A DNA stretch of 61,195 nucleotides from Oscillospiraceae bacterium (GTDB taxonomy: Bacteria; Bacillota; Clostridia; Oscillospirales; Oscillospiraceae): assembly GCA_017506735.1 (NCBI GenBank), contig JAFVMW010000025.1, positions 1 to 61,195 of the forward strand, in the 5' to 3' direction. Both the position numbers and the translations under genes were made by a program. Positions 9,312 to 61,195 of this stretch are shown here, in pieces; the stretch's first letter is position 1; each line of letters begins with the position of its first letter. The notes under the pieces were generated by a model, which was not told the origin of the DNA, did no database searches, and was given only the letters and a program-made list of their open reading frames with translations.

Positions 9312-9327
9312 TTATCCTTGATATCCC

Positions 9328-9361
9328 AAAGCACGCCGCGGCTTTCGCGGCGTGCTTTTTT
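9328..9361 (+). terminator. Terminator after murT-gatD
   Basis: AAAGCACGCCGCG and CGCGGCGTGCTTT form a long GC-rich stem followed by a T run. Confidence 0.9.
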
Positions 9362-9381
9362 CTCGCTTTTCTGGAATATTC

Positions 9382-9410
9382 TTGCAATTCCTGCCGATCC
9401 GGGTTATAAT
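9382..9410 (+). promoter_or_regulatory. Promoter of the LRR/SLH surface protein
   Basis: TTGCAA (9382-9387), 17 bp and TATAAT (9405-9410). Confidence 0.75.
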
Positions 9411-9488
9411 TGCGGTATGCAAAATGAACCATTTTACATCGATTCCTGCAAATGGTTCCTTTGAGAAAAACAATATGAGGTGAGGTAA

Positions 9489-46632: not shown

Positions 46633-47352
46633 ATGCACAGCCATCTTCCCCACACCCACCACGACCACGCCCACAGCATCCTGACCGGAATGCCCAGCCC
46701 CGGAAATTTCGAGCTGGTGTCCGAGCTGATGAAAATGATGTCCGACCCCAAGCGGATTCAGCTGTTCTGGATTCTGTGCCACTGCCAGGAGTGCGTCATC
46801 AATCTGTCGGCCCTGCTGGAGCTGTCCAGCCCTGCCGTGTCCCACCATCTGAAGCTGCTGAAAACCGCCGGGCTCATCGTCAGCCGCCGGGAGGGCAAGG
46901 AGGTCTACTACACCGCCGCCCACACCCCCAACGCCCAGGTACTCCACGAAATGACGGAGCGAATCATGGAAACCACCTGCCCCATCCCGGAATCCGTGGG
47001 GGATGGGGAGCCCTACGATGCCCAGGTTCATGTGATCCGGAAGATCCACGATCTGCTGGTGTCCGATCTGAGGGCCCGGCCCACCATCGAGGAGCTGTCC
47101 GCCCGGTTCCACATCAACCAGACCACGCTGAAGCATTCCTTCAAAACCGTCTATGGCCAGCCCATCGCCGCCTATATGAAGGAATACCGGATCAAACGGG
47201 CCCGGGAGCTGCTGGCTCAGACTGACCTCCCCATCGCCGCCGTAGCCGCCCAGGTGGGCTACGAAAACCAAAGCAAATTCACCCAGAGCTTCAAGGATCT
47301 GACCGGCATTCTTCCCAAGGATTACCGGAAGGAGCAAAAGGGACGGGGATAA
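46633..47352 (+). CDS. ArsR/SmtB-AraC fusion transcription regulator
   Basis: 239 residues. A His-rich N-terminus (MHSHLPHTHHDHAHS) precedes an ArsR winged helix (about 25-105) with CHCQECVINLSALLEL and SSPAVSHHLKLLKTAGLI. A linker leads to a full AraC-type double HTH (about 135-235: TIEELSARFHINQTTLKHSF and AAQVGYENQSKFTQSFK). ArsR proteins are normally about 100-120 residues, so this is a fusion. It is divergent from the metal operon. The Cys pair in CHCQEC and the His tail are plausible metal ligands. It may repress through the ArsR half and activate through the AraC half. Confidence 0.88.
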   Translation: MHSHLPHTHHDHAHSILTGMPSPGNFELVSELMKMMSDPKRIQLFWILCHCQECVINLSALLELSSPAVSHHLKLLKTAGLIVSRREGKEVYYTAAHTPNAQVLHEMTERIMETTCPIPESVGDGEPYDAQVHVIRKIHDLLVSDLRARPTIEELSARFHINQTTLKHSFKTVYGQPIAAYMKEYRIKRARELLAQTDLPIAAVAAQVGYENQSKFTQSFKDLTGILPKDYRKEQKGRG

Positions 47353-47391: not shown

Positions 47392-48405
47392 TTACTCCGG
47401 CAGAATCAGCCTTACCTCCGGTTTGGGGAAGGCGATGAAGCCATTCTCCCGGGGCAGATACCTTGCCCGGGTGGGATTATTTGGATGGGAGTCCGTGGGG
47501 TCCCATCCGGCGTTGGGGCTGTCCGGGTCGATCCAAATCGGAACCGGCTTCACCACCGGCAGCTCCTCCGAATCAAACAGCTGAACCGACGTGCCGTAAA
47601 CACAGTTGTCGAAGATCCATTTCGCGTCACTGACCGCCAGACGGATGCAGCCGTCCGAGGCAGGCTGACCCAGCTTATTGTACTCCGCCGCCTTCAGCAG
47701 ATGGTTCCAGCTTCCCCGGTAGGGAACGGAATGGAACAGAAAATCTCCCCAGATCAGGGTGGCGTAGTGTCCCGACACGCCGCCCATCAGACTGAGCCAC
47801 ACTTCCCGGTCATAGGCCCCGTAGCGCCCCGTAATGGTCCAGTTATTCCGGCCCGGGGAACAGACAAAGGCATTGACCACCCGGCCAGGCTGGCCGTCTG
47901 AAAGCTTCTCATAGACGATCACAGCGCACTGGTTCCGGATCACATGAACAATATAGCTGTCCTTGTCCGGGGCTTCCGCTGCCCCGATGGGGGCCGTTTC
48001 CAGGGGACAGACGAACCATGCCTTATCGGGCCGGGGGCCGTTTGCCGTCAGCTCCACCCACAGGATGGATTGGGCCGGGGTGTCGTTGTCAAAATGGAAG
48101 CTGACCGTCAGCTCCGCGGATGCGCCGGATTCCAGCCAGAAGTGCCGGTCCTCCCGGTACAGAACGCCGTTGATATACCACCGGAGGGTGCATTCCGTCC
48201 GCTCTGTCACGTTCTGAAACTGAACCCAGGTACGCACCACCGAGGCTTCGGCGGACACAGGCTCCGGGGCATCAAACTGTGCCCGAACCTGTGCCAGCAC
48301 ACCGGTGTCTTCCGCAGCGCCCACAGGAACTGCCAGCAGCAGAAGCATACATACACTCAGCAAACCCATTAACAATCTGCGCAAACCGTTTCCTCCGTCC
48401 TTCAC
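47392..48405 (-). CDS. Secreted L,D-transpeptidase (YkuD)
   Basis: 337 residues with a Sec signal (RRLLMGLLSVC...VPVGAAE). An N-terminal beta domain (about 45-145) is followed by a YkuD catalytic domain (about 150-285). The catalytic motif is complete: HSVPYRG, then SDGCIRLAVSDAKW with the nucleophilic Cys. Such enzymes make 3-3 peptidoglycan cross-links or attach proteins to the wall. GTG 48405 overlaps the HprK-like stop by 4 bp (GTGA); a TTG at 48384 with GGAGG 6 nt upstream is an equally good start. Co-transcribed with the HprK-like gene. Confidence 0.88.
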   Translation of the reverse strand: MKDGGNGLRRLLMGLLSVCMLLLLAVPVGAAEDTGVLAQVRAQFDAPEPVSAEASVVRTWVQFQNVTERTECTLRWYINGVLYREDRHFWLESGASAELTVSFHFDNDTPAQSILWVELTANGPRPDKAWFVCPLETAPIGAAEAPDKDSYIVHVIRNQCAVIVYEKLSDGQPGRVVNAFVCSPGRNNWTITGRYGAYDREVWLSLMGGVSGHYATLIWGDFLFHSVPYRGSWNHLLKAAEYNKLGQPASDGCIRLAVSDAKWIFDNCVYGTSVQLFDSEELPVVKPVPIWIDPDSPNAGWDPTDSHPNNPTRARYLPRENGFIAFPKPEVRLILPE

Positions 48406-49142
48406 AGGCCCTCTGACATGGCCTGGAAGCTCATTTTAGCCGCCTCCGGGTTCATGTTGCATTCCAGCCGATAAAAGGCTGCACAGGCCGCCAGGCGGTC
48501 CAGAAGCTCCATATACTTAGGCATCAGCCGGGGATTCCGGGGTCTCGCGCTCTGCTGGAACAGCATGGGCAGGGCCTCCCGGGCATCAATCCTGGTGATC
48601 CGGTTCTCCGTTCCGCGCTCCAGAACGCAGATGGCCTTCAGGGGCACCATAATATTGCTGCCCAGCCGGTGCTTGCCGTTCCAGGGAGAGCCACAGGCGA
48701 TGATCTGATCCCCCTCGAACCGCAGAAAGGGCTTGTCATCGTTGACCATCACCGCCCGATCCCCCAGCAGCTCACGCCAGAGCCGGGTGTGGGTGGACTT
48801 GCCGGTGCCGCTTTTGGCGGTGAACAGATAGGCGACCCCATCCACAGCCACCACAGAGCCGTGGAAGAGCAGAATGTCGTATTCAAAAAACTTCTCGGTG
48901 ATCTTCCGCTGGATGGCAGTGGATTCCAGGTAAGCGTCGCTGTATTCCCGAACCGGCAGGCCCTCCAGCTCGTCCTCCCGGGCTGCCTTCATCCGCTCAT
49001 ACTCCAGATCCCGGGGAGAGATGGAAACGGAAAAATCCCCCTCTCCCCCCTCTGTTGGCCGGGCAAAGGCATCCATCAGGTTTCCATAATTCTGTTCAAT
49101 CTCCACAGCCCGTCCGGCCACGGAAAGCAGTAATTTGCTCAT
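48402..49142 (-). CDS. HprK-like P-loop kinase of peptide-modification loci
   Basis: 246 residues. The Walker A motif is FTAKSGTGKSTHTRLW (about residues 107-122), with VNDDKPFLR downstream as in HPr kinase/PEP-carboxykinase-fold proteins. It lacks the HprK N-terminal domain. Relatives occur in lasso-peptide and other RiPP loci; the enzyme from the paeninodin locus phosphorylates the precursor C-terminus. Here it lies just beyond the terminator that follows the 44-residue peptide. It has its own promoter (49182-49210). Likely substrates are the two small peptides, both of which contain Ser/Thr after the leader motif; this is inference. Confidence 0.8.
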   Translation of the reverse strand: MSKLLLSVAGRAVEIEQNYGNLMDAFARPTEGGEGDFSVSISPRDLEYERMKAAREDELEGLPVREYSDAYLESTAIQRKITEKFFEYDILLFHGSVVAVDGVAYLFTAKSGTGKSTHTRLWRELLGDRAVMVNDDKPFLRFEGDQIIACGSPWNGKHRLGSNIMVPLKAICVLERGTENRITRIDAREALPMLFQQSARPRNPRLMPKYMELLDRLAACAAFYRLECNMNPEAAKMSFQAMSEGL

Positions 49143-49181
49143 AAACCTATCTCCATTTCAATACAGGCACATTTTTGCTCT

Positions 49182-49210
49182 ATTATAGCCCAAGCAGGTC
49201 CGGAATTCAA
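49182..49210 (-). promoter_or_regulatory. Promoter of the HprK-like/L,D-transpeptidase operon
   Basis: On the minus strand TTGAAT (49205-49210), 17 bp, TATAAT (49182-49187). Confidence 0.75.
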
Positions 49211-49243
49211 TGCTCTTTGCGACCCATTGTTTGTCTGATCCTG

Positions 49244-49279
49244 AAAAAACCGGGCCAGGGACAACTGTCCCTGGCCCGG
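49244..49279 (-). terminator. Terminator after the pullulanase-peptide transcript
   Basis: On the minus strand CCGGGCCAGGGACA pairs with TGTCCCTGGCCCGG around a tiny loop, followed by TTTTTT. It shows that the 44-residue peptide gene is the last gene of the pullulanase transcript. Confidence 0.93.
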
Positions 49280-49348
49280 CCGAAGGTGCGAATGTTCTGC
49301 GTATTCGGTCTTCCGCCCGGATAGGCGGAGTCTTAAATCACAGGATCA

Positions 49349-49483
49349 TCATTTGGTGAGAATATCCTCATCCATCATGTTCAAATCGTAATGTGTAACA
49401 GGCTTGCCGGAATCGGAGGTAGTGATCACGTCCTCCATCTGGAATCTGCTGATTTCCACAACGGGCTCTTCAAAAAACTTCAT
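49349..49483 (-). CDS. Putative RiPP precursor peptide 1 (44 aa)
   Basis: 44 residues. The leader-like half has MKFFEEPVVEISRF, then EDVITTS; the C-terminal half is SDSGKPVTHYDLNMMDEDIL plus TK, acidic and without Cys. AAAGGAG lies 10 nt before the ATG. It begins 25 bp after the pullulanase stop and is followed by a strong terminator, so it is co-transcribed with that enzyme. It is homologous to the 36-residue peptide at 58966-59076: both share MK-x-F-x2-P-x-[VI]-E and D-V-I-x-T-S at the same spacing, then diverge. That conserved-leader, variable-core pattern is the mark of modified peptides; maturation is inferred. Confidence 0.7.
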   Translation of the reverse strand: MKFFEEPVVEISRFQMEDVITTSDSGKPVTHYDLNMMDEDILTK

Positions 49484-49508
49484 AATAATGTTTCTCCTTT
49501 CTGGTTGC

Positions 49509-52500
49509 TCAATTGCCTTTGATTGCCTTGTCTGCCGCGTCAATGTACATGACCAGTGCCTTCGCCAGATCAATTGTTTCTGGTTTATTCGTTGAGTCAG
49601 AAATGATGCGGTGGGCATATTCGTATCCACTGTAGACCAGCTCAGGGCCATAGATCTTATTTCCGCTTTCATGCAGATAATAGGGCTTGACCACAATGGT
49701 CTCGTCCATATCCTTTGCAGCAACGCCACGAACGTATCCGTAATAGTAGCCATCAATCAGGGTCAGCAGCACACTGCTGGTTTCTCCCATGATGATGTAT
49801 TCCAGATACAAGTCCTTCTCCTGAAGCTCCTGGCTTACGGTATATCTGAACCGGTAGGTAATGGCACCCTCCAGCTGCAGGGTCGCGGCCTCTGTGGTAA
49901 ATCCTTCGGTGGCCTCCTCAAGGCTGAATGCATAGCCGCCCATCACAGAGCTGTTGAAAGGCACTTCCGCAAAGCCTACATTCATCAGCTGTTCTGTCTT
50001 ATAGTCAAAGCTGATCTGAGCCGCCGCGCCATACTGCATCAATGCGTTACACAGATGCCGGGTCGCTGCGCTGGTGCTTTCTTTTGCCACCATTCTCTGG
50101 GCGTAAATTCTGGGGCTGTACTCCAGAACCTGTGTATAGACATAGGTTCCGTCACTCAGTTTCAGATAACCAACCACGAACTGAGAGTCGCCCATTTCCT
50201 TTGCGGCGATGCCGTCGGTATAGCCATAGTAGATACCAGGCTCATCCTCATAGTGGACCAGGGTCTTCTGGATGGCCTTAGAGGGATCGTGCGTTTCCGC
50301 ATCTTCCAGATTATTGAAGATATACATACCGTACTCTGCGACATTTTCAGCCTCTACCTGGAAGCGGTAGCGGATCTGGATCATATCCTCAACCAGCAGC
50401 GTTGCAGAGACTGCTTCAATGGTTTCGGTGGGTACCACACGTTCACCCTGGGTCAGAACCATGGCAGAGATGCCTGCCACACTGACGGTGCTGCTGACGG
50501 GATTGCCCTGAGCTACAGTTCCGGCATTGTTACCGTCGATGCAGATATTCCAATCTCCTGCAGGCAGGGTGACCTCTGCGGCTTTCTGGGTTGCGTTGAA
50601 GATCACAACGATGGAATTGACGGATTCACCGATCACCTGGCTTGCATCGATGGTGAACATAACCACCTCATTGGTGACCCATGTGTACTTGACCAGTCTG
50701 TCAATCTCCGCACGGGTTGCCAGCCGCAGGGCAGGATGGGCATTACGGAAGGCGATTAAGCCCTTGTAGTAGGCAGAGTTGTTGGCGTACTGCTCCTTCT
50801 CCAGATTGGACCACTCGATGTGATTGACATAATCGGATGCATTGTAGCTGTTCTCGCAGCGGCCGCCATCCTCTTCCAGCTTCTCACGGAGGAATTCCTC
50901 ACCGGCGTGGATGAAGGGGATGCCCTGGGAGGTCATGTAGATGGCTGCGGCCAGATTGTTCATCTTGATGATGTCAGCATCAATACCGGGCTTTCCGGTG
51001 GAGAGGATCAGCTTGTCCACCAGCGTGTAGTTATCATGGCAGGAAGCGTACTGGACGATCTGCTGGGGATTGCTGGTCCAGCCGGGCTTTGCCATGAAGT
51101 TGTCCCGGATGGCCTCTTCCTTGCCGGTCAGACCGGACACGAAGCCCAGAGAAGTACCGTTGGAGCCGCCCAGCAGGTTGCGCATGGTGTCGGAGAAGTA
51201 GGCGAACTCAGGAGTCTCGGCAGAGTTTGCCTGCGTAGCCATGCCGTTGCCGGGCTCCACAGCAGTGCCCAGGGTCCAGCCCTCGCCGTAGAAGATCACA
51301 TCGGGGCAGCAGGCGTGGACAGTATCCACAATCTCGTTGATCGTGGTGGCATCCAGCAGGCCCACCAGGTCGAAGCGGAAGCCGTCAATGTGGTATTCCT
51401 GATGCCAGTACAGCACGGATTCCACGATGAATTTGCGAACCATCTCACGCTCGGAGGCGGTATCGTTGCCGCAGCCGGAGCCGTTGGAGTAGCTGCCGTC
51501 GGCGTTGACACGGGAGAAGTACTGGGGCACGATCTGGTTCATGGAGAACTTGCCTGCGTCGTAAACATGGTTGTACACCACGTCCATGATGACGCTGATG
51601 TCGTGGTCATGGAGGGACTTGACCATCTGTTTGAACTCCTTCACACGGGTTGTTCCATCATAAGGATCGGTGGAGTAGGAGCCCTCGGGGAGATTGTAGT
51701 TCACAGGATCGTAGCCCCAGTTGAAGTTATCGCACTTGGTCTCGTCCACGGAGCCGTAGTCGTAGACAGGCAGCAGATGCAGGTGGGTGATGCCCAGATC
51801 ATCCAGATAGTCGATGCCGGACTTGATCTTACCATCGCCGGTACCATTCTCATCCGCATCAACTGTGGTTCCGGTCTGTGTGAATGCCAGATACTTACCC
51901 TGCCATGCTTCCTGAATGCCGGAGGAATCATCGATGGAGAAGTCACGGACGTGCAGCTCATAGATGATGGCATCGGAGTACTTGGTGATGGGTTTGGGAT
52001 TTCTGTCGCTCGCCCAGCCCTCGGGGTCGGTGGAATCCAGGTCGATGACCATGCCGCGCTTGCCGTTGACACCGGCGGTACGGGCATAGGGGTCAATGAC
52101 TTCCACCTTTTCACCGTCCACGTTGACGGAGTAGGTGTAGTAGGTGCCGTCCAGGTCGCCCTCGACAGTAGCGTACCAGGTTCCGTCCTCACCGGCGGTC
52201 ATGGAAACGCTCTTGATCAGATCGTCGGTCTTGTCTGTGCCTGACTCATACAGGTTCACACTGACGGAAGCCGCAGTGGGGGCCCAGACCCGGAAGGTAG
52301 TGGAATTCGCAGTCCAGAGTGCGCCCAGCTCGCCGTCGTAGGTGAACTCCTCAGCGAACTTATCGGAGGCGTAGACGGTGTTGGTGTTGATCTTGTAATC
52401 CGTATCCGTAAACTTGTCCTGCTCGGAGAAGCGGATGCTGTACTGGTGCAACGTTACCAGATCCAGTGTCTGCTTCAACTTCAAGGTATATGTGCTGCCT

Positions 52501-55088
52501 TCAGCAAGGACTTCATCGATAATCTCTGCCTCGATTCCATTCCGATAGATGGAGAAAGCGGTTTCGGGATCGGAAACCAACTGGCTGGTCTTGATGACAA
52601 TGGAGTTCCGGTCGTAATCCAGTTCAATGGAGTTGATCTTTTTGGTAATCACAACATCAGCATTGAGCTGTCTGCTCCAGCTCATATCGTGCTTCAGTTC
52701 GTTGTTTTCGTACCATTCTCCATTGCAGGTGATGTACAGGTCAATGGTACCGGACACAATGTTGCGCAGATCCGCAACCACCTCGCCCTCCTGGGCTTCC
52801 CATTCGTTTCCGGCAACACTCTTCCGCACCTTCATACTGATGGACTGAACCGCGCGGCCATCCACATTCCCGATCACCGCAACCGCTTCACCATTCTCTA
52901 CGGTGAAGGAGTATTCTCCGCCGCCATCCCAGTTGGTACCCCAGGTAAACAGATTCCAGTTGCTGTAATTACTGTCTGCTCGCCTGTAGTGGACCCGGAT
53001 GGTGACGCTATTGTTGTCCAGCGTTGGATCAGAGATCAAGAATGCACAGTTGTCTTCCTGATACCAGTCGTTCAGGGGGTCTTTATACCATGCTTCCTTA
53101 TCCATATTGCGGTCTGCAACGAACTTATACTGATAAACACCGGGAGCCAGATCCGTTAGGGTTACAGTCCACACACCATCGCCCTGCTCCTTCATCTCGG
53201 TATCGCCCCATCCATTGAATGTACCAGCGATCGTCACCTTGTCAGCATCCTTGTTTTTATACTGGATGGTCACAGACTGGCCGTCCACCACCATGGGCCA
53301 AACGATACTCGCAGCGTCACTCTCGATGTCGGCGTTATACTTGCCTTCGTTCCTGGTAGTAATACCCACCCACTTCTCGATGGAGTAGTTGCCAAAAACA
53401 TCCCGCTCAAAGGCACTTGCATCCAGCCACAAATCCACCGTCTGTCCATCACCGCTGTACAGGAAGCTCTTGCCCTGGCCCTCAATTGCGGTATAGGTAA
53501 ACTGGGCAGTATACCAGCCATTCTCGTCCTCGGAAAGCTGAGCGCCCGGCCAGCCACCATGCTGCTCGCCACCAGCGCCCCAGGTATACAGTTTTACCGT
53601 ACTCCAATTCTGTACATTAACAAAGTGCAGGGTCACATCGTAAGTATAGGTGGGCATAGAGCCGTTAGGCCAGGAAGTATCCTTCGATTCGGTCAAAAGG
53701 CCGCCGTTCACGGCATCATACCAGTATTCTCCATCCGCCTCGATGATGATGTCTGGAGTTTTACCATCGTCTCCGCCTTTGCTGAACAGAATGCCAACGC
53801 CCTTTGTCGCATTCAGGTCAGACAAGGTGAGGGTGTACCAGTTTTCATGATCATCATCCTCGGACAGAGCCTTACCAGGCCAATCGCCCGTTAATGTATC
53901 ACCGCTACCCTTCAGCCAGCTGTAGGCATAGACCTTGTCCCACATATTGGTGTTGCGGTAGTGGATGATGACATTGTTGACGGGCTCGTCCAGATCGGGT
54001 TCCTCAGCAGTATAGCTCAGGTACAAAGAACCATCATCATTTTCTGTCAGCAAAAACTCGACAATCATGCCACTTGGAATGTGCAGCTTGTCGCCCTTCT
54101 GAGAATTGGTCACCAGCGTGGCGGAGGCAACCTCGCCCAGCCATCCATCCGTTTTATACTCAGTGCCTTGGCTGTCCTGAACATAGATATAGGTATCCCC
54201 TGTTACACGCAAGGACAGCTTTCCATCAATAAACTTGTAGTCTTGTCCGTTATAGTCTGCACCGTTGATATATCCTACAAGGTAGTAGTCATCGGGTACA
54301 GGTTCCTCGCCCTCGCCACCAGGGTTGTAAGTGAATTCGCTGACCTGGTTGCTGTCATTTGCCCAGTGGATGTAGTAGGCATCGCCGTCTGCAAATCCAG
54401 TGATATTGGGGGTCTGCTGGCGGTTGGAGGGGTTGCCGTTTTCCAGGCCGTTGAACAGCAGGCCGGTGGCCCATGTCGGAATCTCGATGCTGTAAACATC
54501 GTAGCCGCTGTCAGTGCCCACCTTAGTCATCTTCTCGCCGGGCCATGCGGTACCCTGCCCGGAAGGATCATCCCAATAATGGGCATAAACCTCGGGCCAA
54601 GCCCAGTCGTTGCGGAAGTAGACTGTGATGGTCTCGGGTTCTGCAGGTTCTTCGGGTTCAACTACGGGAGGCGTATAGGTAGACCAGCTTCCGCCCCCCT
54701 GATCCCAGGTGCCCTCTTGGACTGTGTAGCAATTCGTACCATCAGTCGGAACTGTCAGATTGCCGGTCTGATTCCACTTGTTGCTCCAGTTGTTTGCAGC
54801 AACACTGGGGTTCATCCGGCAGAAGATGACGCTAGTATAACCGGAAGGTACTGCTACCTCATAAATTCCATCGCCGTCCGGATCGGTCATGCTGACCCAG
54901 GTTTCTCCATTGCCGAAGAAATAGGCCGCAAACCGGGCATTTGCCTGTGTCCAGTTGCTGTTCGGCTTCAGATACAGGATCTTCGGCGTATCGGCAGCAA
55001 TCGCCGTCACAGGCATCATGCTCAGCATCAAGGCCAGGGCCAGGATGAAGCATGACAGCCGTTTCCATTGTTGGTTTCCGTGTTTCAT
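49509..55088 (-). CDS. pulA: Giant secreted multi-CBM type I pullulanase
   Basis: 1859 residues with a Sec signal peptide. Starch-binding modules: an N-terminal unit (about 33-145), three CBM26-like units (about 150-235, 370-460, 480-570; pattern YFRN...WPG), a glycogen-binding E-set-like unit (about 600-685) and a CBM41-like unit (about 690-790). Then CBM48 (about 920-1030) and the GH13_14 catalytic domain: YNWGYDP-type NWGYDPVNY, DVVYNH (about 1168), GFRFDLVG with the nucleophile Asp (about 1234), YGEGWT acid/base Glu (about 1266), CHDN (about 1349). It debranches alpha-1,6 links of starch outside the cell. The C-terminus (about 1550-1859) has two units with L-x-x-YGAAAQ-type helices; no dockerin, SLH or LPxTG. 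Confidence 0.93.
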   Translation of the reverse strand: MKHGNQQWKRLSCFILALALMLSMMPVTAIAADTPKILYLKPNSNWTQANARFAAYFFGNGETWVSMTDPDGDGIYEVAVPSGYTSVIFCRMNPSVAANNWSNKWNQTGNLTVPTDGTNCYTVQEGTWDQGGGSWSTYTPPVVEPEEPAEPETITVYFRNDWAWPEVYAHYWDDPSGQGTAWPGEKMTKVGTDSGYDVYSIEIPTWATGLLFNGLENGNPSNRQQTPNITGFADGDAYYIHWANDSNQVSEFTYNPGGEGEEPVPDDYYLVGYINGADYNGQDYKFIDGKLSLRVTGDTYIYVQDSQGTEYKTDGWLGEVASATLVTNSQKGDKLHIPSGMIVEFLLTENDDGSLYLSYTAEEPDLDEPVNNVIIHYRNTNMWDKVYAYSWLKGSGDTLTGDWPGKALSEDDDHENWYTLTLSDLNATKGVGILFSKGGDDGKTPDIIIEADGEYWYDAVNGGLLTESKDTSWPNGSMPTYTYDVTLHFVNVQNWSTVKLYTWGAGGEQHGGWPGAQLSEDENGWYTAQFTYTAIEGQGKSFLYSGDGQTVDLWLDASAFERDVFGNYSIEKWVGITTRNEGKYNADIESDAASIVWPMVVDGQSVTIQYKNKDADKVTIAGTFNGWGDTEMKEQGDGVWTVTLTDLAPGVYQYKFVADRNMDKEAWYKDPLNDWYQEDNCAFLISDPTLDNNSVTIRVHYRRADSNYSNWNLFTWGTNWDGGGEYSFTVENGEAVAVIGNVDGRAVQSISMKVRKSVAGNEWEAQEGEVVADLRNIVSGTIDLYITCNGEWYENNELKHDMSWSRQLNADVVITKKINSIELDYDRNSIVIKTSQLVSDPETAFSIYRNGIEAEIIDEVLAEGSTYTLKLKQTLDLVTLHQYSIRFSEQDKFTDTDYKINTNTVYASDKFAEEFTYDGELGALWTANSTTFRVWAPTAASVSVNLYESGTDKTDDLIKSVSMTAGEDGTWYATVEGDLDGTYYTYSVNVDGEKVEVIDPYARTAGVNGKRGMVIDLDSTDPEGWASDRNPKPITKYSDAIIYELHVRDFSIDDSSGIQEAWQGKYLAFTQTGTTVDADENGTGDGKIKSGIDYLDDLGITHLHLLPVYDYGSVDETKCDNFNWGYDPVNYNLPEGSYSTDPYDGTTRVKEFKQMVKSLHDHDISVIMDVVYNHVYDAGKFSMNQIVPQYFSRVNADGSYSNGSGCGNDTASEREMVRKFIVESVLYWHQEYHIDGFRFDLVGLLDATTINEIVDTVHACCPDVIFYGEGWTLGTAVEPGNGMATQANSAETPEFAYFSDTMRNLLGGSNGTSLGFVSGLTGKEEAIRDNFMAKPGWTSNPQQIVQYASCHDNYTLVDKLILSTGKPGIDADIIKMNNLAAAIYMTSQGIPFIHAGEEFLREKLEEDGGRCENSYNASDYVNHIEWSNLEKEQYANNSAYYKGLIAFRNAHPALRLATRAEIDRLVKYTWVTNEVVMFTIDASQVIGESVNSIVVIFNATQKAAEVTLPAGDWNICIDGNNAGTVAQGNPVSSTVSVAGISAMVLTQGERVVPTETIEAVSATLLVEDMIQIRYRFQVEAENVAEYGMYIFNNLEDAETHDPSKAIQKTLVHYEDEPGIYYGYTDGIAAKEMGDSQFVVGYLKLSDGTYVYTQVLEYSPRIYAQRMVAKESTSAATRHLCNALMQYGAAAQISFDYKTEQLMNVGFAEVPFNSSVMGGYAFSLEEATEGFTTEAATLQLEGAITYRFRYTVSQELQEKDLYLEYIIMGETSSVLLTLIDGYYYGYVRGVAAKDMDETIVVKPYYLHESGNKIYGPELVYSGYEYAHRIISDSTNKPETIDLAKALVMYIDAADKAIKGN

Positions 55089-55124
55089 TTTTACACATAC
55101 CTCCTCTGTGTAATCTTATTTTCC

Positions 55125-55181
55125 ATTATACCCCAGCGTAACCGTTTGCGCAAGTGGCGTTTCTCACAAAAGAAACGTTTC
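55125..55181 (-). promoter_or_regulatory. Pullulanase promoter with two LacI/CcpA-like operators
   Basis: On the minus strand TTGCGC (55148-55153), 17 bp, TATAAT (55125-55130). GCGCAAACGGTTACGC (55136-55151, 6 of 8 arm positions paired) overlaps the -35 box, and GAAACGTTTC (55172-55181, perfect) lies just upstream. Both have the central CG and AAAC arms of LacI-family sites such as MalR or CcpA cre boxes, which fits sugar control of a starch enzyme. Confidence 0.65.
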
Positions 55182-55199
55182 CATTCCGTGAAACGACAC

Positions 55200-55229
55200 A
55201 AAAAAGGAACTGCCCTCTCGGGCAGTTCC
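55200..55229 (-). terminator. Terminator after the ABC exporter gene
   Basis: On the minus strand GGAACTGCCC-GAGA-GGGCAGTTCC then TTTTTT. It separates the exporter operon from the pullulanase transcript. Confidence 0.9.
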
Positions 55230-55241
55230 TTTCACAGGCCA

Positions 55242-56909
55242 TTATGCTTTTCCGGACTGGAACGCATGGATTTTCCTGTCCCGGACCTCCAGCTGCCAGT
55301 CGCTGATCTCCATGGCGGCAGGCCGGTGGGTCACGGCGATGCAGGTTCTGCCGGGCAGGGCCCGGAGCCGCTCCAGCACCCGGGATTCGGTCGCGCTGTC
55401 CAGTGCGGAGGTGCATTCGTCCAGCAGCAGAATGGGCGCGCCGCCCAGCACCGCCCGGGCAATGCTCAGCCGCTGGGCCTGGCCCTCGGACAGTCCGGCG
55501 CCGCTTTCTCCCAGCACCGTGTCCAGTCCGTTGGGCAGCTGATCCAGGTACTCGTCCATGCAGCTCACATGGATGGCCTGCCGGATCTCGTCCTCCGCCG
55601 CATCGGGCTTGATGATGGTCAGATTGTCCCGGAGGGTGCCGCTGAGCAGCAGATTTCCCTGGGGCACATAGGCGAACAGCCGCCGGGTTCTCCGGTCAAT
55701 GGGCCGTTCTTCCCCACCGCTGACGGCGTACATGCCGCCCCCGTTGGGCTTGTATATGCCCAGCAGGAGCTTTAACAGCGTGCTTTTGCCGATGCCGGAG
55801 GCACCGGTAATCACCGCGAAGGCCCCCTTAGGCAGGGTGAATTCCGCATCCGACAGAATCTGATCCCGGTCATAGGCGAAGGACAGCTCCCTGGCCCGGA
55901 AGGCATCCATACGGGCATACAGCGCCTGGGCATCCTCCTCCATGGGCTCCGGCTCCCCCTGGATCTGATCCAGCTCCATGAGCCGCTCGGCAGAGGCCAC
56001 CATGGCAATGTACTGGGGCAGCACACCGGAAAGATTGACAATGGGGGTCTGGATCTGGTTCACCAGCTGGATCACCGCCGTCAGAGAGCCGAAGCTCATC
56101 TGTCCGTGGAGCATCCGCCAGGCGCACCATATCAGAGCCAGGAAGCCTGCCCCCTGGTACATCAGACTGATGCAGGTGTTTGTCAGCAGGGAGATGTTCT
56201 TCCGCCTGCGCTGAACCTCATACCGCTCCTCCATCAGAATATCCGCCCGGCGCTCCACCTCGGCGGACACGTCCATGGCCTGGACCATCAGCAGCTTCTC
56301 CATCGTCTCCTGCAAAAGGCCGGAAACCCTGCCGTTGTGGGCGCTGACCTGTTTGTTCAGATCCTTCAGCCTGCGGCGCATGACCGCAGTGGCTCCCAGA
56401 ACCACAGCCCCGGCCAGGGCCACCAGGATGGTGAATCGTCCGTCCAGCGCACCCAGCACCACCACCGCGGCAGCCAGCCGGGTGATCATCGAAGCGGTAT
56501 TGGGCAGGATGTTCAGCACACCGGAATTGACCTGGTTCACATCGGCATTGAGCCGGTTCAGCAGCTCCGCGCTGTGGTAGCCGGACACGGCGGCATATTC
56601 GCCATGGAGCAGGCCGTGGAGCAGGTCACGCTTCCAGTCCCGTTCCAGATCCATGCTCAGCCGGTCCCGGAGGTGGCGCATCAGAGTGGTGCAGAGCAGG
56701 ATTCCGGCAATAATCGCCGCCTGGACACCGCAGGCCCGGAAAAAGGCCATCTGATCTCTGGACACCGCGCTGTCAATGACACCCCGGCTGCCCAGGGCGA
56801 AGAACACAGACAGCAATGCCTGCCCCACCTGGGCCAGCACCAGCAGGCACAGCCCGGGAATCCGCCGCCGAATCCGCCCGGCAGTCCAGAGAATGGGGTT
56901 TTGTTTCAT
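55242..56909 (-). CDS. ABC exporter (fused membrane and ATPase domains)
   Basis: 555 residues. Six membrane helices (about 15-310) precede an ATPase domain with Walker A GASGIGKST (about 368-376), Q-loop YVPQGN, signature LSEGQAQR, Walker B ILLLDECTSALD and H-loop VTHRP. It is type I exporter-like (MsbA/bacteriocin family) without an N-terminal C39 peptidase domain. The separate S26-type peptidase encoded directly upstream (ATGA overlap) could do the cleavage. Last gene of the PqqD-S26-ABC operon. The likely cargo is the modified small peptides; no other substrate is suggested by context. Confidence 0.88.
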   Translation of the reverse strand: MKQNPILWTAGRIRRRIPGLCLLVLAQVGQALLSVFFALGSRGVIDSAVSRDQMAFFRACGVQAAIIAGILLCTTLMRHLRDRLSMDLERDWKRDLLHGLLHGEYAAVSGYHSAELLNRLNADVNQVNSGVLNILPNTASMITRLAAAVVVLGALDGRFTILVALAGAVVLGATAVMRRRLKDLNKQVSAHNGRVSGLLQETMEKLLMVQAMDVSAEVERRADILMEERYEVQRRRKNISLLTNTCISLMYQGAGFLALIWCAWRMLHGQMSFGSLTAVIQLVNQIQTPIVNLSGVLPQYIAMVASAERLMELDQIQGEPEPMEEDAQALYARMDAFRARELSFAYDRDQILSDAEFTLPKGAFAVITGASGIGKSTLLKLLLGIYKPNGGGMYAVSGGEERPIDRRTRRLFAYVPQGNLLLSGTLRDNLTIIKPDAAEDEIRQAIHVSCMDEYLDQLPNGLDTVLGESGAGLSEGQAQRLSIARAVLGGAPILLLDECTSALDSATESRVLERLRALPGRTCIAVTHRPAAMEISDWQLEVRDRKIHAFQSGKA

Positions 56910-57367
56910 TTCAGATGCCTCCCGAGCCAGCCGACGCCCCTCCGCCAGAAGTGTCTGATGTGTCGGCTGTGATACCACACCCGGCAGTAAAGCCAATATC
57001 CAGGCTCGTTCACAGAGTGCCTCTTGTCGCCTCTGGTGAAGGCTGTAACCACAGCGATCATCTGGTCATGACGGATTCCCGGCTCCTTTTCGAACTGGTT
57101 GTCGCCTAAACAAGTGTAGGAATCCCCCACTTCTACGATCCGGTGCAACACAAATTGGCCGCTGGATCGCTGATACAACGGCAAATCGTACTTTTTCAGC
57201 TGTTCCGGCAGCGGTGACAGCACCACACTGTCAATCCCCTGCCGCAGCATAGGCAGCATACTGGTTCCTCTCGGCTTGAAGCGCACCTGTCTGCCAGCAG
57301 CCAGTTGTTCCCGGATCAGAGGCATCAGATCCTTCAGCCTGTATTCGTTCTCAAGCAAGGAATCCAT
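56906..57367 (-). CDS. S24/S26-family signal peptidase-like protein
   Basis: About 153 residues. The Ser nucleophile motif is RGTSMLPMLRQGID (about residues 33-46). The general-base segment is FVLHRIVEV: His replaces Lys, as in the Ser-His (SipW/eukaryotic) type of signal peptidase. It is followed by CLGDNQFEKEP, the usual GDN block. There is no convincing N-terminal membrane helix; the C-terminus is basic and Trp/His-rich. It overlaps the end of the PqqD gene (starts GTG 57373 or ATG 57367), so it is translationally coupled. Small S24/S26 proteases next to PqqD genes are seen in peptide-modification loci; leader removal is the likely role. Confidence 0.8.
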   Translation of the reverse strand: MDSLLENEYRLKDLMPLIREQLAAGRQVRFKPRGTSMLPMLRQGIDSVVLSPLPEQLKKYDLPLYQRSSGQFVLHRIVEVGDSYTCLGDNQFEKEPGIRHDQMIAVVTAFTRGDKRHSVNEPGYWLYCRVWYHSRHIRHFWRRGVGWLGRHLK

Positions 57368-57611
57368 TTTCACTCAGCTTCTTTACAAAGTTGGAAACCG
57401 CAATCCGGGCGGTGGCTTCGTCCACGTCGTATTCCCCCAGCAGGGCCTGCACCAAGGCGTCCTCGGTGGTGTCCTCGTTCAGCCGCTCCCACAGGAACTT
57501 GCCGGTGTCATTCAGAGTAATCATCATATTCAGATCCAGCTCATCGCCGGTGGGCAGCACCACAGTCTGCCCTGCCACAGTCCGCAGCAGAAATCCATCC
57601 TTCAGCTTCAT
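57351..57611 (-). CDS. PqqD-type peptide recognition protein (RRE)
   Basis: 86 residues. The PqqD fold pattern is clear: VVLPTGDELDLNMMITLNDT, then GKFLWERL, then the helices to the C-terminal FVKKLSENGFL. PqqD-like proteins bind the leader of a precursor peptide and present it to the modifying enzyme. AAAGGA precedes ATG 57611; the longer ORF runs over the promoter. First gene of the PqqD-S26-ABC operon, directly downstream of the radical SAM gene's terminator. The shared leader of the two small peptides is the obvious candidate ligand. Confidence 0.88.
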   Translation of the reverse strand: MKLKDGFLLRTVAGQTVVLPTGDELDLNMMITLNDTGKFLWERLNEDTTEDALVQALLGEYDVDEATARIAVSNFVKKLSENGFLA

Positions 57612-57657
57612 ATTGTAAAATCCTTTCCGATTGTCTGTTTTTGCTTTCGCTCTGGTT

Positions 57658-57686
57658 ATCATATCATAAAAGTTACACTTTGTCAC
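57658..57686 (-). promoter_or_regulatory. Promoter of the PqqD-S26-ABC operon
   Basis: On the minus strand GTGACA (57681-57686), 17 bp, TATGAT (57658-57663). Confidence 0.65.
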
Positions 57687-57694
57687 CAGAGAAT

Positions 57695-57725
57695 CATAAA
57701 AAAACGAGCGGACGAACCGCTCGTT
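57695..57725 (-). terminator. Terminator after the radical SAM gene
   Basis: On the minus strand AACGAGCGG-TTCGT-CCGCTCGTT then TTTTTTT. Confidence 0.9.
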
Positions 57726-57739
57726 TTTCGAAATAATAC

Positions 57740-57779
57740 GTCATTCCGAGCCAGTCCGCAGACTGGCGTGGGAATCTCA
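57740..57779. repeat. Short palindromic intergenic repeat
   Basis: GTCATTCCGAGCCAGTCCGC followed by a facing GACTGGC and GGGAATCTCA. The inner GCCAGTC/GACTGGC pair forms a hairpin. It resembles a dispersed intergenic repeat of Oscillospiraceae; only one copy is in this window. Confidence 0.4.
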
Positions 57780-57790
57780 TGGATGATGGA

Positions 57791-58897
57791 TCAGTCGCAG
57801 GACTCAGCCTCAGGTACTGCCTGACCAGGGTCAGGGAGCTTTTTCACACCAGCCGCAACCAGCCGCCGGCTCAGCTCGCAGACCTCCGGCTTGCAATGGC
57901 CGGTGTAAAGGCCGGTCAATCGCATCGCTGGACACTTGGGACAAACATCGTCATAAGGGCAGCCCACGCATTCCATACCCAGCAGCATTTCACCCACTGC
58001 TTCCTTAGTCTTCTCCCAGGCTTCTGCGTAGGACATTTCCAATAGCGATACATCACCAATCGGTAACATTACACAAGGATACATTCTTCCATCCCAGCTA
58101 ACCACCGCTGCGCCAGCACCTGCGTTGCAAGTCAAACCCTTTGGCGAAACCTTGCTATTACCATGGGGCTCAGGAGTAATCTCTACCGGAATTGCCGGAC
58201 CATTCGATAATTCATACTGCGCTTTAGAAAGTTCTACAATATCGTCTATACTCAGGAAATGATCATCTTTTTCCGGGCATTCCCGATTCTTTAGCAGCAG
58301 AAAGTTATTGGACTGACAAGGAAATCCATTTTCTATACAATATCGTCGGATGCCGATATATTCATCCTTCATATAGCTACTCGGCGTCACCACAACGCTT
58401 ACACGAATTTTAGCATCGCGCAATTTGCGAATTGCGGAAACCGCCTTTTCAAAACCCTTATGGCCTGTAACTTGTAAATACCCTTCTTCCGAACACCCAT
58501 ATAAAGAGACTCGAACAAAATCAGGAGGATACTTCCTGAAAAATTCAACATGACCATCCGAAATCAATGTGCCATTAGTCAAAACACCCACTCTGACACG
58601 TTTCTTCCATAGATGTAAATACAGTTCCTCAAAATCCGAACGCATGAGGCATTCGCCTCCACTGAGGGCTGCAAAGAAAAGACCTGAATCGTAGGCTTCA
58701 TCAAAAATTCGTTTCCATGTCTCTGTTGATAATTCCCGGGCACGCAGGGCATTAGAATCCGCATTATGAATAAAGCACATTTTGCAATCCAGATTGCAGC
58801 AAGCCGTTAATTCATAGTGACCAACAATCGGTGTTTTCATTTTCTTTGCCGCCCGCACCATGCTTTTTTTCCATTGTATATATGTTTGGTTTTCCAT
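57791..58897 (-). CDS. Radical SAM/SPASM peptide-modifying enzyme
   Basis: 368 residues. The radical SAM cluster motif is CNLDCKMC (about residues 34-41), followed by the SAM-binding GGE in LSGGECLM. The C-terminal SPASM region has the Cys set for auxiliary 4Fe-4S clusters: TCNAG, YPCVM, ECVGCPYDDVCPKCPAM and GHC. SPASM enzymes modify peptides (thioether, C-C or C-O bonds) or proteins such as sulfatases. GGAGG lies 5 nt before ATG 58897. It is directly downstream of the 36-residue peptide gene, separated by a 15-bp hairpin, and upstream of the PqqD gene. The base composition is more AT-rich than its neighbours. Confidence 0.88.
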   Translation of the reverse strand: MENQTYIQWKKSMVRAAKKMKTPIVGHYELTACCNLDCKMCFIHNADSNALRARELSTETWKRIFDEAYDSGLFFAALSGGECLMRSDFEELYLHLWKKRVRVGVLTNGTLISDGHVEFFRKYPPDFVRVSLYGCSEEGYLQVTGHKGFEKAVSAIRKLRDAKIRVSVVVTPSSYMKDEYIGIRRYCIENGFPCQSNNFLLLKNRECPEKDDHFLSIDDIVELSKAQYELSNGPAIPVEITPEPHGNSKVSPKGLTCNAGAGAAVVSWDGRMYPCVMLPIGDVSLLEMSYAEAWEKTKEAVGEMLLGMECVGCPYDDVCPKCPAMRLTGLYTGHCKPEVCELSRRLVAAGVKKLPDPGQAVPEAESCD

Positions 58898-58914
58898 GGA
58901 AACCTCCTGATTTT

Positions 58915-58948
58915 TTTGGCAGATGGAGCTTCCGCTCCATCTGCCAAA
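58915..58948. promoter_or_regulatory. 15-bp perfect hairpin between peptide 2 and the radical SAM gene
   Basis: TTTGGCAGATGGAGC-TTCC-GCTCCATCTGCCAAA. On the minus strand it is followed by A residues rather than T, so it is probably not a full terminator. Such stems after precursor genes often stabilise the peptide mRNA and set its ratio to the downstream enzyme. Confidence 0.75.
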
Positions 58949-58965
58949 TGATTTCTGCTAACTAA

Positions 58966-59076
58966 TTAGACTACGCAATATTCCTCGGGAGTGGGTTCTT
59001 CTTCCGTGGAGGTGGCAATAACATCCATTGCATCGAACTTCATCAGTTCGATTTCAGGGGTCTGAAACTTCTTCAT
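58966..59076 (-). CDS. Putative RiPP precursor peptide 2 (36 aa)
   Basis: 36 residues: the leader-like part MKKFQTPEIELMKFDAMDVI is followed by ATS and the acidic tail TEEEPTPEEYCVV with one Cys. AAAGGAG precedes the ATG at 59076. It shares the MK-x-F-x2-P-x-[VI]-E and D-V-I-x-T-S pattern with peptide 1 at 49349-49483. Its neighbours are a giant secreted protein gene upstream and the radical SAM/SPASM gene downstream, all in one direction. It is bracketed by two strong hairpins. Too short for most gene finders. Modification and export are inferred from context. Confidence 0.72.
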   Translation of the reverse strand: MKKFQTPEIELMKFDAMDVIATSTEEEPTPEEYCVV

Positions 59077-59177
59077 CGATTTTACTCCTTTCGTCATATT
59101 TACATAAGAACTGCCAACTATTAAAGTTCACTAGTTCTTATATCACTTTAATATCCTTTGGCATAAAATTTCCCTCC

Positions 59178-59213
59178 AGGCATCTTATCGATGCATGGCA
59201 TCGACAAGATGCC
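59178..59213. promoter_or_regulatory. Hairpin between the secreted protein gene and peptide 2
   Basis: AGGCATCTT-ATCGATGC on one side and GCATCGA-C-AAGATGCCT on the other, a long stem with a small central loop. A T run follows only on the plus strand, so on the minus strand it is more likely a stability or processing element than a terminator. Confidence 0.6.
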
Positions 59214-59232
59214 TTTTTAGAAACCTTTTGCT

Positions 59233-61195
59233 TTAACCAAAGAATGCCTTTGCGGCATCACAGTAATTCATCATTGCATACATCAACGGATTCAGTGCAT
59301 CAGACTGCTTGCCCTGGGCCAGTGCGCTCAAGTTGGTCACTACTGTTTCAGAAACTGCCACATTATCCTTATACAGAGTGATTTCCAACCGATCACGGCC
59401 TTCCGCTCCCGCAATTGCAAAGTCGTATCTAATACGGTTGTTTTTGGGACTCTTAAGGACTTCTGCACCAAAGGTGTGTTTAACTACACTGCCATCCTTG
59501 CTCTTCGTCTGTACAATCCGCACTTCATAACCTTCCAGACTGCTGTAAGCAGGAACCGCAAAGGTAAATGCTATCTTAATCTGCTCCTGCAACATGGGTG
59601 TATAAGAAGTAAGATAATATGTTGCCTTAGCCGGTGCTGTCCAGGTATCCAATGCAGGCACATCGTTGTTAATCATTGCCAGATAAGTATCGGACAGGCC
59701 CGCAGTTGCCAGATTATCAACGCTAATGTTGAATCGCTTCTGTGCTTCCTCACCGTACTTCAACAGATTTGCCAGCATAACACAGCCATTCAGAGACTGC
59801 AGATCTGTCTCATTGCTCTGATACCTACCATAGAATGTATCCATCATCGCAATCACTATTTCCTTATAGGTGAAAGTAATGGGATCACCGATATAAACCT
59901 TGCCATCCTTCTCACCGCAAACAACAACTGTCATTTCTGCGGTCATTTCAGGTGCTGCCAAGGTATAGCGGAATTGATGGTTGCTAGTATTAGAGCTATA
60001 AGCATCTAAATACGTAGTTTTGTCGAGCTTCGTGATCTGCAGGAATACGCGGTCATAAGCAGTAGTAGTCTTTGCATTGACATTGAAGCTCAGTTTCAGT
60101 TCTGCGCCAAGCATCAAAGTTGCGGTTAGGCCAGTAGAAGCAGGCTTAATTGCCAAAGCGTTATCTGCGCCTGCTGCCAGAGCAGAGATAACCCAACTGC
60201 CCTCAGCAATCTCATTTACACCGTCGGCATCAGAGAAGTACTTACCACATTCGCAGAAGTAGTATGCAATGTTACCAGCGACTGTGTATGTGGGGTCCTT
60301 AGCTGCAACTTCAGTTAGTGTATGCGTGTGGGTTTCAACACTCTTTCGGGACAGTTCTTCATTACAACCAGAGCAATACACTACTTCATAAGTAATGCCG
60401 TCAATGGTCTCATGTACTGCCTCGCCGGGAGTATGAACATGGGAAACAATGTCACCACAAACACTGCACACGCCATCCACATAGTTATGAGAACCAATGT
60501 TCACCTGCTCGCCACAGTCACTGCAGAACTTCCAGTGCTCATCGTCATTGAAGTTCCACTCAGCATTCAGGGTGCCGTTCACATGGTTGGTAGCAGGAAC
60601 CTTCACAGTAGTACGGCTCATTTCCTCACCACACACGCTACAGTATACCACAGAATCATAGCTGCCGTCAACTGTGCAAGTTGCATCAACAGTATTCTCC
60701 GTAACTGCCGTACCCGCGGTATGATTACCAGTTGCAGGAATCTCTTCTGTGCTAATGGTGATACCACAATCATCGCACTTGACAGTAACGGAACCAGCCT
60801 CAGCACAGGTTGCATCCTCAGTGGTCGTAGTGGTGTTCACATGACCGGAAGCTTCCACTTCATCTGCAACATAGCTGTCGCCACAGACGGTGCAGGTGTA
60901 GGTGGTGTAGCCCTTTGCGGTACAGGTGGGCGCGGTTACGACTGCTGCGTAGCTATGAGCGGCTACAGGAATCACTTCCTGCGCAACCAGAACCTCGTTA
61001 CAGACGGAGCAGTGCTTGCCTTCGGTCAGGCCGGTTGTGGTACAGGTTGCGGCAACTGCCTCATCAATAACCTCGCTATGGGGTGCCATCTCTGTTTCAT
61101 CCGCAATATAGCTGTCGCCACAGACGGAGCAGGTGTAGGTGGTGTAGCCCTTTGCGGTACAGGTGGGCGCGGTTACGACTGCTGCGTAGCTATGA
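59233..61195 (-). CDS. Large Cys-repeat secreted protein, 5' end outside the window
   Basis: At least 654 residues; the reading frame is open to the window edge, so the true start and signal peptide lie beyond it. The visible N-part is an array of two-CxxC repeats ([39 protein letters not shown]), each about 40 residues and probably metal- or disulfide-stabilised. The C-terminal 310 residues are beta modules plus two helices of the type [15 protein letters not shown] and [20 protein letters not shown]. Both helix types recur in the pullulanase C-terminus. No SLH or LPxTG is seen. Peptide 2 follows 157 bp downstream. Confidence 0.85.
60871..61195 (-). repeat. Direct repeat in the Cys-repeat array
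   Basis: 60871-60958 and 61108-61195 are almost identical (offset 237 bp, 79 codons), encoding the same [20 protein letters not shown] unit. The second copy is cut by the window edge, so the array continues outside. Confidence 0.85.

Follow-up and report, generated by a model that had tools for sequence, protein, structure and literature searches.

A 61,195-nucleotide stretch of DNA from an Oscillospiraceae bacterium (GenBank assembly GCA_017506735.1, contig JAFVMW010000025.1; the whole stretch is referred to here as the window) encodes two short peptides with a common leader, set among genes for modifying enzymes, an exporter and large secreted proteins. We regard it as likely that these genes form a clostridial variant of the Linear Polyphosphorylated Peptides (LPPs; Popov et al., 20 May 2026, PMC13381572), a kind of ribosomally synthesized and post-translationally modified peptide (RiPP), with a mature peptide that works outside the cell together with secreted partner proteins. 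The gene family, its leader motif, the cassette of maturation genes, the pairing of precursors with genes of secreted proteins and the co-occurrence of peptide and cassette are all apparent at the sequence level. An earlier note on this DNA had proposed a new kind of RiPP; since the cassette matches that of the LPPs published in May 2026, the kind itself is not new.

Gene cluster and precursor peptides

The window is the entire contig C26 of a 2.31 Mb genome that is 81% complete, and the Cys-repeat protein at its end is therefore truncated at position 61195. The enzymes listed in the earlier note (a radical S-adenosylmethionine (SAM) enzyme with a SPASM domain, PqqD, an S26 peptidase, an ABC exporter, an HprK-like kinase, a YkuD L,D-transpeptidase and a pullulanase) are all present. 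The order along the minus strand is Cys-repeat protein, peptide 2, radical SAM/SPASM enzyme, PqqD, S26 protease, ABC exporter, pullulanase, peptide 1, HprK-like kinase and L,D-transpeptidase. The genes of the system and its partners are as follows.

59233..61195, minus strand: partner 2, Cys-repeat protein, N-terminus past the contig end; its C-terminal domain, the same as that of the pullulanase, lies at about 59236-60135
58966..59076, minus strand: precursor peptide 2, LPP-like, 36 aa; match to the leader profile made without window sequences, E 2.2e-12
57791..58897, minus strand: radical SAM/SPASM enzyme, putative optional tailoring enzyme; PF04055 and PF13186, top NCBIfam model ScmE, far under its cut-off
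57351..57611, minus strand: discrete RiPP recognition element (RRE; PqqD, lasso B1-like); PF05402 E 8e-19, open reading frame (ORF) extends to 57686 with a GTG start
56906..57373, minus strand: S26/SpI-like leader peptidase; Ser38, His77 and invariant Asp91 in the 155-aa reading, start uncertain, alternative 57325
55242..56996, minus strand: MsbA/HlyB-like ABC exporter; PF00664 and PF00005, likely start 56909
49509..55088, minus strand: partner 1, secreted type I pullulanase with three CBM26 modules; TIGR02104 683.9 bits against a cut-off of 504.5
about 49512-50411, minus strand: C-terminal YGAAAQ-type domain of the pullulanase (alignment A7)
49349..49483, minus strand: precursor peptide 1, LPP-like, 44 aa, Cys-free; profile E 3.1e-11
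48402..49142, minus strand: HprK-like peptide kinase, LppK-like; Walker A GTGKST and NDDKP motifs, family alignment A3

The two small ORFs and their common leader, as described in the earlier note, were recovered by a leader profile built from 30 non-window sequences and run on the 675 window ORFs of at least 22 aa; only these two matched, the next best ORF giving an E-value of 4.8 and the reversed window proteins a best value of 2.5. The sequence AAAGGAG lies shortly 5' of the ATG in both, and peptide 1 begins 25 bp past the pullulanase stop. In peptide 2 the leader runs up to DVI and is followed by the core ATSTEEEPTPEEYCVV, whose single Cys is the third residue from the end. The DVIxTS pattern has five matches in this genome, and the only small ORFs of this kind are the two window peptides.

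Conservation of the small ORFs in relatives, which had been set as a check, was found in both genome sets. The 23-column leader profile A2 matches in 30 of 119 relatives including the genome of the window (E ≤ 0.05), and the 24-position profile A6 in 52 of 391 genomes taken from the class (E ≤ 0.01), with up to 17 precursor copies per genome (G329 17, G135 14, G473 13). The 58 unique peptides have lengths of 28-77 aa with a median of 43, and contig ends may have clipped the shortest. Their cores carry a negative net charge in 56 of 57 cases and none is cationic; one of the 58 had no parsed core, and the peptides of L014 and L024 were added by eye.

Leader positions were counted back from DV[IL] in the 84 of 95 unique peptides that fit the motif expression, 11 being left out. 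Tyr or Phe stands at -17 in 82 of the 84, Pro at -14 in 63 (Ala in 16) and Ile, Leu, Val or Met at -12 in 75; position +1 is Thr or Ala in 68 and never Gly. The distance from [YF] to Ser is 19 in 79 of 81 peptides. Ser at +3 and D-[VI]-[IL] are not independent counts, because the expression that selected the 84 peptides demands them. A clostridial branch with its own leader end, ED[VI][IL]-xxS, appears to be new, as far as sequence can tell.

That the small ORFs are untranslated chance frames is extremely improbable. They are short, and no Pfam or NCBIfam model covers those tested. The leader profile run against the PDB gave weak, chance-level matches only, mostly to RIG-I. Chance would have to account for the profile E-values, a leader kept across families, the Shine-Dalgarno-like sites in the window, the co-occurrence with the kinase described below, and a nonsynonymous distance (dN) below the synonymous distance (dS) in 15 of 18 close peptide pairs.

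Several other precursor arrangements were seen. At L068:7022-8116 there are five tandem precursors whose middles differ and whose C-terminus, NPNCENEGPAGDAFL, is common; it recurs at L086 and L099 of the same genome. The precursor at L122:2751-2984 (minus strand) has a Cys about every six residues, and its locus also contains HprK, S26, PqqD and, at a distance of about 4 kb, a radical SAM gene of the second type. A class of longer Cys-bearing peptides of 83-99 aa, with an MKKxYxKP-like start and CYH near the end, is probably a sister system; several lie directly behind giant proteins, beside a second, shorter-matching HprK class. Their positions are:

L025:5476-5727, longer Cys-bearing peptide
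L026:8570-8869, longer Cys-bearing peptide
L028:12070-12327, longer Cys-bearing peptide
L029:6947-7216, longer Cys-bearing peptide
L030:2417-2671, longer Cys-bearing peptide
L211:998-1261, longer Cys-bearing peptide

Co-occurrence of peptide and cassette

Among the 119 relatives, a full-length HprK-like kinase is present in 27 of 30 peptide-positive genomes vs 15 of 89 negative ones (p 6e-13), and in the class set of 391 genomes in 49 of 52 vs 53 of 339 (p 7e-30). The S26 profile behaves likewise in the relatives (27 of 30 vs 21 of 89). These Fisher tests ignore phylogeny, and the loci are not independent (G329 and G135 together supply 31 of 96 peptides); the links persist within G000-G072, which belong to the same genus wherever a taxon is given (p 3.5e-7 to 2.6e-5). 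The earlier note had predicted co-occurrence of the peptides with a PqqD, radical SAM and HprK set. For the kinase this holds genome-wide, and PqqD stands beside the kinase in 44 of 57 loci; the window-type radical SAM enzyme was found in 6 of 119 relatives, which does not support it as a core member of the set. Only 17 of 62 matches to the peptide profile fall within 5 kb of a full-length kinase, so most precursors lie outside the cassette.

Genes in the fetched loci were called by a simple in-house script, and L140, a duplicate of L072, was excluded from the peptide counts. The recurrent neighbours in the first loci are the HprK-like kinase, PqqD, ABC, S26 and radical SAM families and, less often, a PF14907 nucleotidyltransferase; among the 57 loci with HprK, which are often cut, PqqD occurs in 44, S26 in 31, ABC in 29 and the nucleotidyltransferase in 13. 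The view that leader-guided peptides here go with genes for modification, cleavage and export is thus supported by the conserved leader and the cassette, with functions predicted from sequence.

Proteins of the cassette

The kinase gives a weak HPr_kinase_C match, below the Pfam and NCBIfam cut-offs, and no HPrK structure matching it by sequence was found. Its 11 aligned relatives share the motifs, with H93, K114 and D135 invariant in alignment A3. Searched against solved proteins, the profile of the RRE family finds TbiB1 (5.8e-10), TfuB1 (5.4e-8), 9x90 (4.2e-7) and 9x8z (LppB; 2.5e-6); the window PqqD alone reaches only E 0.013. Its start is most likely at 57611, which gives 86 aa, and not at the GTG that opens the 111-aa frame.

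The S26 protein is missed by Pfam and aligns as a Sec11/SipW-like protease, its nearest solved relative being Sec11C with a weak E-value of 0.02. Ser38 of the G-x-SM motif and His77 of the HR motif are 39 residues apart and Asp91 is invariant; the motif counts in the family are 31, 33 and 33 of 34. The window exporter matches MsbA_rel with 222.8 bits, below the NCBIfam cut-off. At L179:3406-5673 (minus strand) an ABC exporter carries a fused S26 leader-peptidase domain at its N-terminus, arranged as in C39 peptidase exporters, and leader removal and export are therefore probably coupled.

Radical SAM enzymes

The window-type radical SAM enzyme was found in 6 of 119 relatives including the genome of the window (E ≤ 1e-40), against 30 of 119 for the peptide, and its place as a core part of the system, as first suggested, is not supported. 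The nearest named relatives of the window protein are Oscillospiraceae metagenome-assembled genomes (two close matches and one weak in a contig scan). A second radical SAM type, nearest TIGR04463, lies near other peptides. Among unique peptides, the core contains Cys in 7 of 9 that lie within 2 kb of a radical SAM gene vs 10 of 48 that do not (p 0.002), and 7 of those 10 exceptions are one related group from the single genome G065. An optional radical SAM enzyme that accompanies cores containing Cys appears, on sequence grounds, to be a new feature.

This association, and the affinity of the second type to TIGR04463, would suit a system of thioether (sacti- or ranthi-) peptides with the radical SAM enzyme as main maker and the kinase and S26 protease as side players, as would G067 (89% complete), which has a radical SAM gene and peptides and no HprK match at E ≤ 1e-8. 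We consider such a system very unlikely: neither radical SAM type occurs within 2 kb of 48 of the 57 unique peptides, the kinase is nearly always in the genome, and peptide 1 is Cys-free. The radical SAM scores lie far below the cut-off of every NCBIfam model shown, the best being 25 of 70. A strict sacti- or ranthipeptide assignment was dropped, as the enzyme is optional.

Secreted partners and their C-terminal domain

An upstream gene was called for 88 of 96 peptides, and 55 of these 88 follow a gene of the same orientation by no more than 40 bp, usually by 14-26 bp. By our own hydrophobicity rule (not SignalP), a signal peptide is carried by 42 of the 49 partners with the N-terminus in view, six being cut before it, vs 43 of 262 control close pairs (p 4e-21); when G329 and G135 are left out, the figure is 19 of 24 (p 4e-10). 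The tie to secreted proteins noted earlier is upheld by these counts. The Cys-repeat or pullulanase body is not supported as the point of pairing: partner bodies vary widely (BspA-type leucine-rich repeat (LRR), F5/8, lectin-like, Ig-like, carbohydrate-binding module, pullulanase, or no family), and the common part tends to be a C-terminal domain. The dispersal of precursors and their pairing behind genes of signal-peptide proteins appear, from sequence, to be new.

The last 160 aa of another partner match 48 of 63 partners, 45 of them near the C-terminus, vs 23 of 758 other genes. The 63 include L024 (406 bp away), added by hand, and L067, a second-type radical SAM gene that is the source of 4 of the 23 non-partner matches; some partners are full-length paralogues. 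The partner C-termini form several groups, not one. Where peptides are at least 70% alike, the partners share a stretch in 13 of 13 pairs, all in G135, and in 6 of the 13 this stretch covers less than 40% of the shorter protein, at its C-terminal end; where peptides are less than 50% alike, the partners match in only 11 of 349 pairs.

The domain type of the window, with two YGAAAQ-like repeats, occurs twice in its own genome, on the two partners. Of the 119 relatives, 19 carry it, and among these 17 have full-length HprK and 16 the peptide. The class set of 391 genomes includes 20 with the domain; the peptide occurs in 17 of them and the kinase in 16. The peptide is thus present in 17 of 20 domain-bearing class genomes vs 35 of 371 others (CTD2). 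In the class set, a peptide follows within 250 bp of 19 of the 57 listed domain matches.

Strict pairing, which holds for 14 of 17 peptides in G329 and 9 of 14 in G135, places them as second cistrons behind secreted genes with one common cassette. An exported peptide could, in such an arrangement, be a signal that gauges the output of secreted proteins or the diffusion of their product. We think this improbable. The cores vary widely between copies, and cassette and radical SAM genes make up the six biggest clusters of neighbours. Another five clusters span 3 loci each; one consists of second-type radical SAM genes, and a receptor may be among the four that have no annotation.

It is somewhat less unlikely that the peptides are LPP-like RiPPs with a role of their own in antagonism or defence, their location behind secreted genes merely timing expression, although we doubt this too. 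The tandem L068 copies with one common C-terminus resemble bacteriocin arrays, yet the acidic cores are unlike most membrane-active peptides, and timing alone predicts neither common C-terminal domains in the partners nor the co-occurrence of the window-type domain and the peptide. LPPs are patchy in Bacilli, which their authors read as typical of conflict genes (PMC13381572) and which would fit antagonism.

Proposed pathway and role

In the proposed clostridial LPP pathway, PqqD, as the RRE, would bind the leader through [YF]xxPx[IVLM]. By analogy with published LPPs, the HprK-like kinase would then phosphorylate the conserved Ser at +3 (DV[IL]-xx-S) and the Sec11/SipW-like S26 protease would cut the leader off, probably after DVI. 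The ABC transporter would export the acidic linear core, in which Cys may also be modified where a radical SAM gene adjoins. Many precursor genes would act as second cistrons behind secreted proteins, often ones with a common C-terminal domain, and one or two cassettes would serve the dispersed precursors. We infer that the mature peptide acts extracellularly with the partners; in the simplest case it would bind the C-terminal domain or become attached to it.

A more specific and tentative proposal, which we hold to be possible rather than probable, is that domain, peptide and cassette form a so far unrecognised attachment or maturation system for clostridial surface proteins, the phosphorylated peptide being a ligand or a covalent tag of the C-terminal domain. 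Such a system, on the same tentative footing, would resemble sortase or PEP-CTERM sorting in its logic, with a RiPP as linker or cofactor.

Several observations weigh against an LPP-like system working with secreted partners. Three of the 52 peptide-positive genomes are without the kinase, and 53 of 339 peptide-negative genomes have it. Strict pairing occurs in only 18 of the 39 genomes with inspected peptides; in some of the others the peptides are at contig ends or the partner was missed by the crude signal-peptide rule, and in others they are not beside a secreted gene. Two close peptide pairs have dN above dS at saturated distance, and for one dS was not computable. G150 and G424 carry the domain and neither peptide nor kinase. 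The local nucleotidyltransferase profile did not find the LPP nucleotidyltransferase (PF14907) in the window, a cut contig from a genome that is 81% complete. The spacing from the protease His to the invariant Asp is 14 here vs 25 in LppS (D93), the corresponding Asp being ambiguous. The likeness to LPPs is one of genes and motifs, and the C-terminal domain and the cassette may both track a common lifestyle.

The domain itself provides a further such point. A frame-independent search was made at 40 domain ends from six domain-rich genomes (G067 10, G028 10, G016 10, G039 5, G065 4 and G008 1). The leader profile gave no match there at E ≤ 1; a single peptide matched the profile of the longer class (L211), and another was recognised by eye (L197). 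That every protein with the C-terminal domain has a peptide of its own is thereby rejected. The domain thus looks tied to the system at the level of the genome, and either the peptides would be shared in trans or the link would be indirect.

The clostridial branch links LPPs to concrete partners, namely secreted proteins of gut-type bacteria that are glycan-active, repeat-bearing or Ig-like, and to a C-terminal domain that in the searched genomes seldom stands apart from the system (it does so in 2 of 20 class genomes). Should the link be functional, surface proteins would be handled in a manner not described before, and phosphorylated RiPPs would have a role open to testing. Were it a matter of co-expression only, the family, with its added radical SAM enzymes and its multiple precursors in one genome, would still appear larger and more varied than in the published main text. 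The biological role of LPPs is stated to be unknown (PMC13381572); the pairing offers a first hint of their possible purpose and makes a role with surface proteins testable.

Other features of the window

The remaining gene of the minus-strand cluster is:

47392..48405, minus strand: YkuD L,D-transpeptidase; PF03734 E 8e-11

This gene overlaps the kinase gene by 4 bp, and the two are probably one transcription unit. No gene called in the other fetched loci is homologous to it; being local to the window, it was rejected as a part of the system. On the opposite strand, adjoining the cluster, 46633-47352 encodes a 239-aa protein that by eye joins an ArsR-type repressor to an AraC-type domain. The region 9312-15539 holds very long open frames on both strands, 1878 aa on the minus strand and 2016 aa on the plus strand; the latter has a short match to an LRR partner protein.

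Comparison with known systems

The best NCBIfam match of the kinase is ScmC and that of the radical SAM enzyme ScmE, both of the SynChlorMet system; ScmC, ScmD and ScmE all score far under their curated cut-offs (21/125, 20/100 and 93/400 bits). Thioether peptides differ in that the radical SAM/SPASM enzyme here scores below the curated cut-offs, with a single Cys in peptide 2 and none in peptide 1.

Phosphorylated lasso peptides (paeninodin and pseudomycoidin, PMC9266682; BsfA, PMC10368454) are described with a PqqD-type B1 protein and an HprK-like kinase, as here, and with a nucleotidyltransferase, which some of the fetched loci also have. Their leaders have YxxPxL at -17/-14/-12, positions reported to be needed for B1/RRE binding, and the HprK-like lasso kinase BsfK phosphorylates Ser3, with Ile/Val at -2 in the Bsf type (PMC10368454). 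Position +1, as counted above, is never Gly in our peptides, and the window cassette has neither a macrolactam cyclase nor a B2 peptidase. The absence of a lasso cyclase noted earlier agrees with our scan for SGGxDS, the Asn-synthetase P-loop motif of the cyclase: five genes over all scanned loci have it, none in the window, and those at L070 and L153 look Asn-synthetase-like by eye. Transglut_core3 (B2) has no match in G000, the genome of the window; of 35 peptide-bearing genomes, 9 have a match at E ≤ 0.001, which exceeds the cut-off in one. A lasso assignment was dropped for want of cyclase and B2.

The LPPs are the closest system. As described in their main text, they have a discrete RRE, an HprK-like kinase, a SipW-like leader peptidase, an MsbA-like exporter and often a nucleotidyltransferase, together with a YxxP leader, a variable C-terminus, Ser3 and no cyclase. 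In the window we find a SpI/SipW-like peptidase, a discrete RRE of the lasso B1/LppB type, an HprK-like kinase and an MsbA-like exporter, without a macrolactam cyclase. LppK phosphorylates core Ser3, and the SipW-like LppS cuts after T-1 to give A1-Q2-S3 (PMC13381572); a cleavage site following DVI, with Ser at +3, was placed independently on the basis of the lasso work and agrees with these data. The Ser-His spacing of 39 in our protease is that of LppS (S29/H68).

The differences lie in the leader and the genomic setting. Of the published consensus YxxPxVLxHQxIxFETxxS, the YxxP part is found here (with F for Y in the window) and the rest differs: the leader ends in ED[VI][IL] instead of FET, and the distance from [YF] to Ser is 19 instead of 18 (our count from the printed motif). 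The clostridial system is accordingly a variant and not a plain member. The published clusters are described from Bacilli, near capsule loci (PMC13381572), whereas here the precursors are dispersed, up to 17 per genome and often behind genes of secreted proteins, and a radical SAM enzyme is optional. The main text of the LPP paper (PMC13381572) contains no term beginning clostridi-, lachnospir- or oscillospir- and does not mention secreted, surface, extracellular or radical SAM; clostridial members may be listed in its supplements. Among the open-licence PMC papers that other literature searches returned, none describes such peptides as paired with secreted proteins in its title or abstract opening. 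As the LPPs have the same enzymes and logic, we rate the clostridial system as a variant of the LPPs.

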